Below the pieces are notes generated by a model. That model had not been told where the DNA came from. It saw nothing but the letters and a program-made list of their open reading frames with translations, and made no database searches. The position numbers and the translations under genes are program-made. From contig NZ_QOKZ01000005.1 of the NCBI RefSeq assembly GCF_003697785.1, positions 124,001 to 188,000 on the forward strand: a stretch of DNA of 64,000 nt, read 5' to 3'. The number at the start of each line of letters is the position of its first letter. Positions within the stretch are counted from its first letter, which is position 1. The DNA is from Paracoccus alkanivorans. GTDB taxonomy: Bacteria; Pseudomonadota; Alphaproteobacteria; Rhodobacterales; Rhodobacteraceae. Positions 682 to 3,845 of this stretch are shown here, piece by piece.

Positions 682-2499
682 ATGGCGAAAGTGCGGTCCG
701 TGACCGGTAAAGATGATATCGCAGCGGCAAGGCCGAAAGGCGCGCGCCGGGGCCTGCCTCCGGTGGCCAGCCCATGGTGGCTGCGCAGCGCTATCGTGGT
801 GATCATCCTGACGGCGCTGGTATCTATCTGGACGACCAATGCGTGGCTGACCGAACGGTTCTCGGAAAACACCCGGATGCGAGCCGATCTTCGGCTTGCG
901 CTTTATACCGGAAACCTGCTTTCCGAATTGCAGCGAACGGCCGTGGTTCCCTTGCTGCTGGCCCGCGATCCGACCCTGATCGGTGCATTGAACAACAATG
1001 ATTTCTCCAGCACATCCGCCCGTTTGATCGCGGCGCAAAAAGAGATCGGCGCGGTCTCGATCCGGTTGCTGGATGCTTCCGGAAGAACCGTCGGATCGAC
1101 CGATCGTTATCAGATCGGCACCAGCAACTCTCTGGCTCCCTATTATGTCGAGGCATTGCGGTCGCGGGACACCGTGTTTGCTGTTTCGAAGGAGGAAGCC
1201 GGCGCCTATGAATTCACCTATTCCCGGGCCGTCGTGGCCGACAGCAAGACACTAGGCGTCATCGTCGTCGCAGCTGACCTGACTCAGATCGAACGCTCGT
1301 GGGCCGGTATCGCGGATGCGGTGGCGGTAACCGACAGTTCGGGCGACATCATATTATCGACGGAGCCACGCTGGCGCGGGCTGACCATGCCCGAGGCACT
1401 GTCGGTGCGCTCCGCTCCTTCCGCGATCCAGCGGGCCTTCCAGGTCACCACCGACTGGACCACCGCCCCTGCCGATGCCTATGTGCAGGGCCGCGCGGTG
1501 ATGCGCAGCGAGCGCAGGATTCCGTTCCGAGGCTGGAAAATGATAGGCTTCACCACCTATTCCTCGATCCGTGAGCGGGTGAACGCCGTGCTGGCACTTG
1601 AAATCATGGGATTCGCGATCCTGCTTGCGACCAGTTTCTATATCCTGTCGCGACGGGCCCGGATGCAGTCGGTGGCATATATGCGGGAATCGGCGGATCT
1701 GCGGGCGCTGAATGCCCGCCTGACCCGCGAGATCGCCGAACGCGAACGGGTGCAAAAGGAACTGCGCGTGGCCGAGCAGACGGTTCAGCAAAGCTCCAAG
1801 CTGGCGGCGCTTGGCGAGATGTCGGCGGGGGTGAGCCACGAGCTCAACCAGCCGCTGGCGGCGATGAAGACCTATCTGGCGGGCGCGCGCCTGCTGTTGC
1901 AACGCAACCGCCCCGAAGAGGCGCTGTCCAGCTTCCAGCGCATCAACGACCTGATCGACCGCATGAGCGCCATTACCAGGCAGCTCAAATCCTATGCCCG
2001 CAAGGGCGGCGAAGCGGTCGAGCCGGTCGATCTGCGCGAAGCGGTCGGCTCCGCCCTGACGATGATGGAGCCACAGCTGCGCGAACGCCCAATCCAGGTG
2101 AGCCGCAACCTCCCCCGCGGCAAGGTCATGGTGATGGCGGATCGCATCCGGCTCGAGCAGGTCATCATCAACCTGCTGCGCAACGCCGTGGATGCCGTCA
2201 AGGATCGGCGCGAGGGGCGAATCGACATTACCGTGGAAAGCGGCGCTCACGCCTATGTGTCCGTTCGCGACAACGGTCCGGGTGTCACTGATCTGGAAAA
2301 ACTGTTTGAACCATTCTGGACAACAAAGAAACCCGGAGAGGGAACCGGGCTGGGTCTGGCGATTTCTTCGTCGATCGTGGCGGATTTCGGAGGTCGTCTG
2401 ACCGCCCATAATGAAACCGAAGGCGGTGGAGCGGTGTTTCAGGTTGAGTTGCCCTTGCATCGGCCCGAAGAGCCGGGCGAGGCGCTTGCTGCCGAATAA
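682..2499 (+). CDS. dctB: DctB-type C4-dicarboxylate sensor histidine kinase
   Basis: Membrane histidine kinase of 605 residues. A first transmembrane helix lies near residues 34-53, a periplasmic dCache/PAS-like sensing region follows, and a second helix is near 300-322. A short coiled coil precedes the kinase core. The H box GVSHELNQPLAA places the phosphorylated His near residue 386; the N box (LLRNAVDAV), G1 (DNGPGV) and G2 (GEGTGLGL) follow. This arrangement is that of DctB, which senses succinate, fumarate and malate. The response regulator starts 20 bases downstream, so the pair is probably one operon. No DctPQM or DctA transporter is in the window, so the ligand is inferred from family likeness only. 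Confidence 0.88.
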   Translation: MAKVRSVTGKDDIAAARPKGARRGLPPVASPWWLRSAIVVIILTALVSIWTTNAWLTERFSENTRMRADLRLALYTGNLLSELQRTAVVPLLLARDPTLIGALNNNDFSSTSARLIAAQKEIGAVSIRLLDASGRTVGSTDRYQIGTSNSLAPYYVEALRSRDTVFAVSKEEAGAYEFTYSRAVVADSKTLGVIVVAADLTQIERSWAGIADAVAVTDSSGDIILSTEPRWRGLTMPEALSVRSAPSAIQRAFQVTTDWTTAPADAYVQGRAVMRSERRIPFRGWKMIGFTTYSSIRERVNAVLALEIMGFAILLATSFYILSRRARMQSVAYMRESADLRALNARLTREIAERERVQKELRVAEQTVQQSSKLAALGEMSAGVSHELNQPLAAMKTYLAGARLLLQRNRPEEALSSFQRINDLIDRMSAITRQLKSYARKGGEAVEPVDLREAVGSALTMMEPQLRERPIQVSRNLPRGKVMVMADRIRLEQVIINLLRNAVDAVKDRREGRIDITVESGAHAYVSVRDNGPGVTDLEKLFEPFWTTKKPGEGTGLGLAISSSIVADFGGRLTAHNETEGGGAVFQVELPLHRPEEPGEALAAE

Positions 2500-2519: not shown

Positions 2520-3845
2520 ATGTCCCGCAAACTGAAGATTGCGATCGTTGACGACGAGCCCGATATGCGGGAATCGATCAGCCAGTGGCTGGTCCTGTCG
2601 GGCTTCGAGACCGAATCCTATGCCAGCGCCGAGGACGCGCTGAAGGTCGTCGGACCGGACTGGCCGGGGGTCGTTGTCTCGGATATCCGCATGCCGGGAA
2701 TGGATGGAATCGCTTTTCTCAAGCGCCTGATGAGCATGGATTCCGCCCTGCCCGTGATCCTGATCACCGGTCATGGCGATGTGCCGATGGCAGTCGAGGC
2801 GATGCGGCTCGGGGCCATGGATTTCATGGAAAAGCCCTTCAACCCCGACAAGATGACCGCGCTGGCCAAGAAGGCCACACAGGCCCGCCGGATGACGCTG
2901 GACAACCGCGCGCTGCGCCGCGACCTGTCCGAAGGTCAGCAAGTCATGTCCAAGCTGATCGGCTCCAGCCCGGTGATGGAACGGCTGCGCGAGGATATCC
3001 TGGATCTCGGACAGGCCGACGGCCATGTGCTGATCGACGGAGAGACCGGCACCGGCAAGACGCTGGTCGCCCATGCACTTCATGCGGTGGGGCCGCGCGC
3101 GACGAAGAAATTCGTCCCCGTGTCATGCGCGGCCTATAATGACGAGGCACTGTCCGCACGCCTTTTCGGCCCATTGGATGACGGGCTGCCCGCGGTCGAG
3201 GAAACCCGCGGCGGCACCCTTTGCCTCGAGGATATCGAGGCCCTGTCCGAACCCCTGCAAGCCCGCCTGCTGGCCTTTATCAGCGATCAGGGCGCGCCCG
3301 CCGAGACCCGCATCATCGCCATTTCGAACGCGCGGGGCGAGGGCCGCAAGGCCGAGGATTCGCTGCGGCCCGACCTGTTCTACCGGCTTTCGGCGCTGAA
3401 TATCACGCTGCCGCCCCTGCGCGCGCGCGGCGAGGATATCCTGACGCTTTTCAACCGGATGACGGAACAGTTCTCGGAGGAATATGGCTGCGAGGCCCCG
3501 CAGGTCGGCGCACAGGAGGCCGCACAGCTTCTGCAAGCGCCATGGCCCGGCAATATCCGCCAGCTCATCAACGTGGCCGAGCGCGCGGTCCTGCAGAACC
3601 GGCGCGGTTCGGGCAGCATCGCATCGCTGCTGATGACGGACGGGGACGACAACCAGCAGGCCACCACGACCGAGGGAAAGCCGCTCAAGGAATATGTCGA
3701 GAGCTTCGAGCGCATGCTGATCGACAATACCATGCGCCGCCACAAGGGCAGCATCGCCAATGTCATGGACGAGCTGTGCCTGCCGCGACGGACGTTGAAC
3801 GAAAAGATGGCCAAATACGGGTTGCAGCGCAGCGACTACCTGTAA
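2520..3845 (+). CDS. dctD: DctD-type response regulator with AAA+ domain lacking the GAFTGA loop
   Basis: Response regulator of 441 residues. The N-terminal receiver has the acidic pair in IVDDEPD and the phosphoacceptor Asp near residue 54 (SDIRMPG). A central AAA+ domain has Walker A GETGTGKT near 173-180, an arginine-finger region LRPDLFYRL, and the PWPGNIRQL motif. The C-terminal Fis-type helix-turn-helix includes GSIANVMDELCLPRRTLNEKM. Two features are abnormal: the segment that should carry GAFTGA is missing (LFGPLDDGLPAVEETRGG runs straight on), and Walker B reads LCLEDIE rather than LFLDEI. Such a protein is unlikely to remodel sigma-54 polymerase normally. It probably partners the DctB-type kinase immediately upstream. 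Function as DctD rests on that context and on overall similarity. Confidence 0.85.
   Translation: MSRKLKIAIVDDEPDMRESISQWLVLSGFETESYASAEDALKVVGPDWPGVVVSDIRMPGMDGIAFLKRLMSMDSALPVILITGHGDVPMAVEAMRLGAMDFMEKPFNPDKMTALAKKATQARRMTLDNRALRRDLSEGQQVMSKLIGSSPVMERLREDILDLGQADGHVLIDGETGTGKTLVAHALHAVGPRATKKFVPVSCAAYNDEALSARLFGPLDDGLPAVEETRGGTLCLEDIEALSEPLQARLLAFISDQGAPAETRIIAISNARGEGRKAEDSLRPDLFYRLSALNITLPPLRARGEDILTLFNRMTEQFSEEYGCEAPQVGAQEAAQLLQAPWPGNIRQLINVAERAVLQNRRGSGSIASLLMTDGDDNQQATTTEGKPLKEYVESFERMLIDNTMRRHKGSIANVMDELCLPRRTLNEKMAKYGLQRSDYL

Follow-up and report, generated by a model that had tools for sequence, protein, structure and literature searches.

The locus raises the question of what becomes of a DctD-like response regulator from which the GAFTGA loop, the element that contacts sigma-54, is missing. 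The window is the whole stretch of DNA analysed, 64,000 nucleotides of Paracoccus alkanivorans; its regulator of 441 residues and the orthologues of that protein are here named DctD1, and the own genome, genus, family and class are Paracoccus alkanivorans, Paracoccus, Rhodobacteraceae and Alphaproteobacteria. The initial annotation described a regulator that lacks the loop, reads LED instead of LDE at Walker B and keeps Walker A and the arginine-finger region, all of which is borne out by direct reading and by alignment. The motifs GETGTGKT (174-181), RLFGPLDDGLPAVEETRGGTLCLEDIEAL, LRPDLFYRL and PGNIRQL are read directly, and the segment between LFG and GG is LFGPLDDGLPAVEETRGG, from which the loop is absent. 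The claim that LFGPLDD runs directly to ETRGG has to be corrected, as six residues, GLPAVE, intervene. At Walker B the two acids have changed places without a gap, GGTLCLEDIE standing against GGTLFLDEI. Three features go beyond that annotation: the L2 stretch of DctD1 is shortened, the sensor of the linked kinase is changed and the own genome is without a match to rpoN. The features of the two genes are collected in the table.

Table. Coordinates in the window of the regulator DctD1, its linked kinase and their functional elements
Feature	Position	Strand	Basis
DctB-like sensor histidine kinase, directly upstream of DctD1	682..2499	+	reading frame, profiles, structure matches
Kinase periplasmic sensor part, residues 72-236	895..1389	+	homology to solved DctB domains
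Kinase Ala152, at Arg of FRDYF (S. meliloti DctB) / WRPYF (V. cholerae DctB)	1135..1137	+	alignment
Kinase Ala197, at Lys of VAKLEF / VVKMDL in two solved DctB domains	1270..1272	+	alignment
DctD1 gene, 441 aa, REC - AAA+ - Fis-type HTH	2520..3845	+	reading frame and domain profiles
DctD1 receiver domain, residues 7-115	2538..2864	+	PF00072
DctD1 phospho-acceptor Asp55	2682-2684	+	in 129/129 unique orthologues
DctD1 AAA+ domain, residues 146-295	2955..3404	+	PF00158; AlphaFold2 model
DctD1 Walker A GETGTGKT, residues 174-181, retained	3039..3062	+	Lys180 in 128/129
DctD1 L1 loop stub FGPLDDGLPAVEETRG, residues 216-231, without GAFTGA	3165..3212	+	alignment
DctD1 exchanged Walker B L-E-D, residues 236-238	3225..3233	+	read directly, and alignment
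DctD1 short L2 (pre-sensor I) stretch, residues 255-263, 9 vs 18	3282..3308	+	alignment
DctD1 arginine-finger stretch Arg283 to Arg289, retained	3366..3386	+	each in 128/129
DctD1 sensor II stretch GNIRQL	3549..3566	+	Arg347 in 129/129
DctD1 C-terminal HTH with LPRRTLNEKMAKY	3690..3842	+	domain profile and alignment

The AAA+ domain is recognised by PF00158 at 92.1 bits (cut-off 20.2), and among the 25 listed of 103 matched NCBIfam models none lies above its own cut-off, the best scoring 289.8 bits against a cut-off of 650. The sequence matches the DctD receiver and linker structure 1qkk at E 1.9e-39. An AlphaFold2 model built from 43 rows, with mean pLDDT 86.8 and pTM 0.56, replaced an earlier one from 10 close rows (pLDDT 68.0). 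The model aligns with NtrC4 (3dzd; Z 30.6, rmsd 9.7, 345 aligned), Brucella NtrX (5m7o; Z 30.1, rmsd 10.8, 355 aligned), the sequence of which is also without GAFTGA, NtrC1 (1ny5; Z 29.9, rmsd 9.5, 361 aligned) and, in row 7 of the fold comparison, VpsR (7v2b; Z 26.2, rmsd 15.2, 353 aligned), and its receiver domain with that of S. meliloti DctD (1l5z; Z 24.8, rmsd 1.1, 146 aligned). Such likeness of a predicted fold to NtrC-type structures proves no function.

The search across the own family covered 198 genomes, one per genus except for two of the own genus, and orthologues, called at a best E-value below 1e-100, are found in 178 of them by this measure, with sequences read for 55 of the 178. 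The alignment holds 137 sequences (the window, 54 and a further 2 from genome searches, and 80 named ones), which reduce to 129 unique orthologues after removal of the fragments L054 and L063 and of identical copies; 16 DctD-type relatives of other families served as a yardstick. A GAFTGA-like motif occurs in none of the 129 orthologues, whereas GAFTGA is present in 13 of the 16 yardstick proteins; two more of these carry GSFTGA (L238, L239) and L227 has also lost the loop. The L1 stretch comprises 14-17 residues in 126 of the 129 and 7, 19 and 20 in the remaining ones, where 22 are usual, and the L2 stretch 9 residues in 118 and 8 to 15 in the rest, where 18 are usual. Walker B reads LED in 117 orthologues, LEN in 6, LEG in 3 and LEE, LDE and FKN in one each, so that its first acid is E in 127. 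The Walker A Lys, Arg283 and Arg289 are each kept in 128 of the 129, and Arg347 and Asp55 in all. The mean share of the commonest residue is 0.857 in REC, 0.797 in the AAA+ core, 0.878 in the lid and 0.906 in the HTH, with linkers at 0.805 and 0.771; the AAA+ core is thus the most variable domain, linkers apart, and its nucleotide-binding positions are almost invariant. The closest named relatives are from Paracoccus species, at no more than 94% identity among the matches listed, and orthologues are 73-86% identical among the matches listed and 46-75% identical in remoter rows. As GAFTGA is absent from all 129 and LED present in 117, with the ATP-binding Lys, the arginine fingers and the phospho-accepting Asp retained, the loss of the loop is not local decay.

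Individual orthologues depart from this pattern. The one of genome G075 (L065) looks decayed, with Walker A GERGAGRS (Lys to Arg) and Walker B FKN, and that of G108 (L063 and its neighbour) is split over two frames. A contig titled Candidatus Poseidoniales archaeon (L171) carries an orthologue of 77% identity and is probably wrongly binned.

The kinase and DctD1 genes lie on the same strand, 20 bases apart, and the periplasmic sensor part of the kinase matches the solved DctB domains 3by9 (E 6e-12) and 3e4o (E 1e-7). In S. meliloti DctB, succinate is presumably contacted by Arg152 and Lys197, which lie in FRDYF and VAKLEF respectively. In the window's kinase, no Arg lies within three residues of Ala152. 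The pocket Lys is found in none of 105 own-family kinase sequences (one gap, mostly Glu), and up to two columns away all of them are likewise without a Lys or Arg. Five of the 105 have the pocket Arg at its own column, but an Arg lies within three columns in 77, so that its general loss, being alignment-dependent, is not secure. Both pocket residues are present in all five of the best DctB-like matches beside other DctD-type regulators, taken from regions L240-L243 (other families) and L244 (G064, own family). The ligand residues of DctB are depicted in Fig. 2 of PMC8694187, a source available in part. As the pocket Lys is gone from the family kinases, dicarboxylate sensing by the DctD1-linked kinase appears doubtful.

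The gene neighbourhood was read with purQ, rne, ccdA, valS, dctQ, dctM, DctS, NtrC, NtrX and the AcoR-like gene named by eye from translations. The DctD1 gene comes after purQ in most neighbourhoods read; of 20 from the own family, 19 have a called kinase-DctD1 pair, 16 a purQ-like gene cluster and 16 one read as RNase E. In the window, the pair lies after purQ, and the next gene downstream, transporter-like by eye, lies on the opposite strand. The own DctP and DctQ are without a close match in 100 loci around DctD1 (20 family and 80 named), one weak DctP match of 26-29% occurring in L090. These loci and the missing pocket Lys do not uphold the role in dicarboxylate control that had been proposed at the outset. 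The R. pomeroyi SPO2626/2628/2630 mutants (PMC10130141, PMC10041152) were considered as evidence on DctD1 and dropped, because SPO2630, called a sensor protein in the portion of PMC4809877 available, is taken to belong to a DctS-type system.

A search for target promoters could start from relatives with the loop. DctD1 shares the HTH stretch RRTLNEKMAKY, letter for letter, with L224, a relative that carries GAFTGA and adjoins dctQ/dctM, and both L224 and L229, which has a like recognition helix, lie beside transport genes (loci L240 and L243). Inspection by eye shows operator pairs at both loci, together with -24/-12-like sites; a strict -24/-12 pattern is found at neither, and a looser score gives 10/12 at each (shuffle p 0.002-0.006), the site at L243 lying 352 bp ahead of its gene. 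A model of the paired operator, built from these two loci, scores them at 39.2 and 42.5, and its best score in 256 kb of own DNA is 17.8 against 15.8 in shuffles of 384 kb. The single operator gives 68 matches in the own genome against 55 for the reversed control, of which 12 were inspected and no target is claimed. An operator pair of fixed spacing gives 50 matches against 28 for the reversed control in 45 genomes (own and 44 others; table sums), and the 29 loci with such a pair, taken one per genome, share no recurring neighbour gene. Two palindromes of the own genome, TCGGCGAAAATTCGCCGA and TCGGCGGATTTCCGCCAG (L256 at 1501, L260 at 1501), lie between predicted genes, each followed at 20 bp by a second, weaker copy.

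A second type of regulator in the own family offers a parallel. The family dctP, which we take to be of the Pseudomonas type (own copy L093), occurs in 125 of 198 own-family genomes at E 1e-100 or better, and 50 dctP loci were examined (the best 30 of the family search, 19 chosen ones and L240). In 22 of them (L193-L221, upstream of dctP) an adjacent DctD-like regulator carries the helix RKTFYDK and is here called DctD2. Like DctD1 it is DctD-like and lacks GAFTGA (0 of 22); unlike DctD1, it has the Walker A Lys off its place in 21 of 21 readable sequences, mostly keeps the Walker B D-E (18 of 22) and lies beside dctP with TGTGCGGANNTCCGCACA-like operators, of which two stand 32-34 bp apart at 19 of the 22 loci and one at 3, by a consensus derived from the same loci in which the operators were counted. 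No -24/-12 site at these 22 loci scores above 8/12 (shuffle p 0.19 or more). In G064, which has rpoN and a GAFTGA regulator, TGTGCGGANNTCCGCACA-like operators 32 bp apart accompany a 10/12 -24/-12 site with p 0.012, a value that comes from one of 50 loci scored and alone would not survive correction; L307 has a 9/12 site (p 0.062) with no regulator found adjoining. The own-genome dctP is without a DctD2-type regulator and without such operators. Beside dctP at L211, L300, L301 and L302 stand GAFPGA/GAFAGA regulators with no clear -24/-12 site, in genomes of which three of four have rpoN, so that there is no strict correspondence between the loop and the type of promoter. DctD2 is likely a sigma-54-free dicarboxylate regulator with readable operators, and its loci suggest that a DctD may retain the enhancer layout yet lose the signs of sigma-54, which by analogy is a parallel for DctD1 and not proof.

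Among known systems, the DctB-DctD pair of S. meliloti and Pseudomonas is a sigma-54 activator of dctA or dctPQM. The DctD1 pair resembles it in REC and linker (1qkk, 1l5z), HTH type, DctB-like sensor part and adjoining kinase and regulator genes, and differs in that DctD1 is without GAFTGA, has a short L2 and reads LED instead of LDE, the kinase lacks the pocket Lys and has the Arg off its place, no close dctP or dctQ lies nearby and the genome is without an rpoN match. The best PDB sequence match of DctD1, at E 4.6e-60, is Brucella NtrX (5m7n), likewise a full-length NtrC-family regulator without GAFTGA, which in contrast to DctD1 retains the Walker B D-E and a longer L2. The input domains and regulons of HupR, TyrR, DhaR and VpsR differ from those of DctD1. 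These four are bEBP relatives without an intact GAFTGA that are reported or judged to be sigma-54-independent in the accessible text of PMC3162934. R. capsulatus NtrC, to which the initial annotation had pointed as a precedent, is confirmed as such by the available part of PMC10274813, where it is reported to be a GAFTGA-less, phosphorylation-dependent bEBP that works with sigma-70 and needs ATP binding and not hydrolysis; like DctD1 it has the NtrC-family layout without GAFTGA, and it is another paralogue. GAFTGA-less bEBP relatives are thus already established (PMC3162934, PMC10274813, as far as available), and with HupR, TyrR, DhaR, VpsR, Caulobacter NtrC and NtrX all on record there, DctD1 cannot count as the second case that had been envisaged. 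In C. sphaeroides, the accessible text of PMC11999139 counts four bona fide bEBPs with GAFTGA or GSFTGA and a DNA-binding domain. No description of a loopless DctD clade was found in the available portions of open-licence full texts.

From these motifs and comparisons, DctD1 is probably an ATP-binding AAA+ response regulator that works with the housekeeping (sigma-70) polymerase. It would have departed from the sigma-54 system long ago and stayed phosphorylation-controlled, its AAA+ domain having lost GAFTGA and half of L2 and exchanged the Mg/catalytic acid pair, with the nucleotide pocket, fingers and sensor II kept. The linked kinase would phosphorylate Asp55; ATP binding, with hydrolysis that the motifs suggest to be slow or absent, would hold a putative oligomer together; the HTH would set this oligomer on presumed paired operators; and, bound there, DctD1 would help, or possibly block, the housekeeping polymerase at predicted sigma-70 promoters. 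The Asp at the catalytic Walker B place may still hydrolyse ATP; in the case of Caulobacter NtrC, which is loopless, ATP binding and ATP hydrolysis are both taken to matter by the authors of PMC10274813 (in the part available). The sigma-70 reading had been put forward in the initial annotation and stands in so far as DctD1 is without the ordinary needs of a sigma-54 activator and the genome without an rpoN match, shorn of the second case and of dicarboxylate control. That annotation had also allowed for a plain DNA-binding response regulator, in which the AAA+ domain would do no more than join REC to HTH, as a scaffold with no role for nucleotide. The missing GAFTGA, the short L2 and the altered Walker B would fit such a protein, as would the precedent of DctD2 with its displaced Walker A Lys and the fold neighbour VpsR, said to need no ATP in the accessible text of PMC10274813; the Walker A Lys, fingers and sensor II Arg, held in 128-129 of 129 orthologues despite the variable AAA+ core, weaken this reading and leave it unlikely, if worth keeping in view. 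By analogy with Caulobacter NtrC, which without GAFTGA both activates and represses genes (PMC10274813, as available), the effect of DctD1 at sigma-70 promoters might be mainly negative, that of a repressor or anti-activator and not of an activator; we consider such a role quite improbable.

The occurrence of rpoN was surveyed in the own genome, genus and family. PF04552, a single Pfam domain used as query, finds no match in the own genome, a 39-contig draft of 99.99% completeness. In the own genus it matches in 10 of 61 genomes, 9 above cut-off, and 50 of the 60 genus genomes other than the own one are without a match; in the own family it matches in 67 of 198, 61 above cut-off, of which 60 are clear and form the rpoN-positive set and one, G134, is weak. 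The own genome has 11 PF00158 matches in 9 genes; the weak matches L006, L007, L009 and L011 were left out, and the five bEBP-type proteins read, DctD1 included, are all without an intact GAFTGA, NtrX and NtrC among them. L005 is an AcoR-like regulator (by eye) without GAFTGA or recognisable Walker B acids, and L001 is a GAFPGA response regulator adjoining a membrane sensor-like gene, in a genome with no rpoN match. The loop is absent from all 55 whole-genome DctD1 loci, the window included, 23 of them in rpoN genomes and 32 in genomes without a clear match, so that its loss does not track present-day rpoN. That DctD1 might serve sigma-54 through another contact surface draws on rpoN being present in 49 of the 178 family genomes with an orthologue (and in 11 of the 20 without); the lack of an rpoN match in the own genome, a loop gone with and without rpoN and a shortened L2 speak against it and make it very improbable. 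A decaying relic without function, to which the decayed-looking orthologue of G075 and the split one of G108 would lend themselves, is hardly credible in view of orthologues in 178 of 198 genomes by E-value, at the identities given above and with key residues almost invariant.

The age of the loss can be approached through the own class, where 17 of 289 genomes have a DctD1 match at E 1e-80 or better, four of them in the own family and 13 outside it at 37-42% identity. In a tree of 51 rows, whose bootstrap had not converged and which includes the long row L066, the 30 DctD1 rows form one clade (support 100/100), and L064 of genome G221 branches ahead of the other 29 (99/95). L064 has lost the loop and retains L-D-E, which suggests, on this one row, that the loop may have gone first and Walker B changed later. 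A separate DctD-type clade (L067 of G064, L069 of G077 and L227 of another family) is also without GAFTGA, with L-D-E retained and the HTH LGIGRRTLNEKI; its loss is apparently independent, and loop loss among DctD relatives is accordingly not confined to the DctD1 clade.

NtrC allows a comparison within the same genomes. Of 30 own-family NtrC loci, 6 have GAFTGA or GSFTGA with D-E, 4 a broken loop and 20 no loop; the loopless ones keep D-E in 19 of 20, with D-G in L288. The own-genome NtrC has lost the loop entirely and reads E-N at Walker B; a Walker B exchange common to NtrC across the family was considered and dropped, because 19 of 20 loopless NtrC retain D-E and only the own one reads E-N. 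The half-broken GAFTGA loops of L290 (G061), L294 (G116), L289 (G133) and L295 (G152) go with a retained D-E, and L2 is kept in three of these loci and shorter in L295; they may represent intermediate stages in the loss of the loop. The rpoN-bearing genomes G221 and G189 combine an NtrC with intact GAFTGA and a loopless DctD1, so that DctD1 there lost the loop while NtrC kept it. G075 is a third such combination, with the DctD1 that looks decayed. Taken together, the conservation of the key residues, the presence of orthologues in 178 of 198 genomes and the absence of the loop even where NtrC keeps GAFTGA indicate that DctD1 is of old origin, has been maintained and is no longer suited to sigma-54.

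A wider reading, held tentatively, is that the pair was re-purposed at both ends. The sensor would have moved off C4-dicarboxylates, the regulator would have left sigma-54 before NtrC did in the same lineages, and an ATP-bound, hydrolysis-poor oligomer would be a stable on-state driving sigma-70 promoters of a near-universal function of the family. The alignment-dependent loss of the pocket Arg makes this reading slightly less likely.

The known cases of AAA+ sigma-54 activators that became sigma-54-free are scattered, and the DctD1 family presents a graded series, from relatives with GAFTGA and -24/-12-like promoters through an early loopless L-D-E member to the L-E-N and L-E-D members, which are spread over most genera sampled; such a series makes the order of the losses testable. 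Proteins annotated as DctB, DctD or "sigma-54 dependent regulator" in these bacteria may carry a misleading name.
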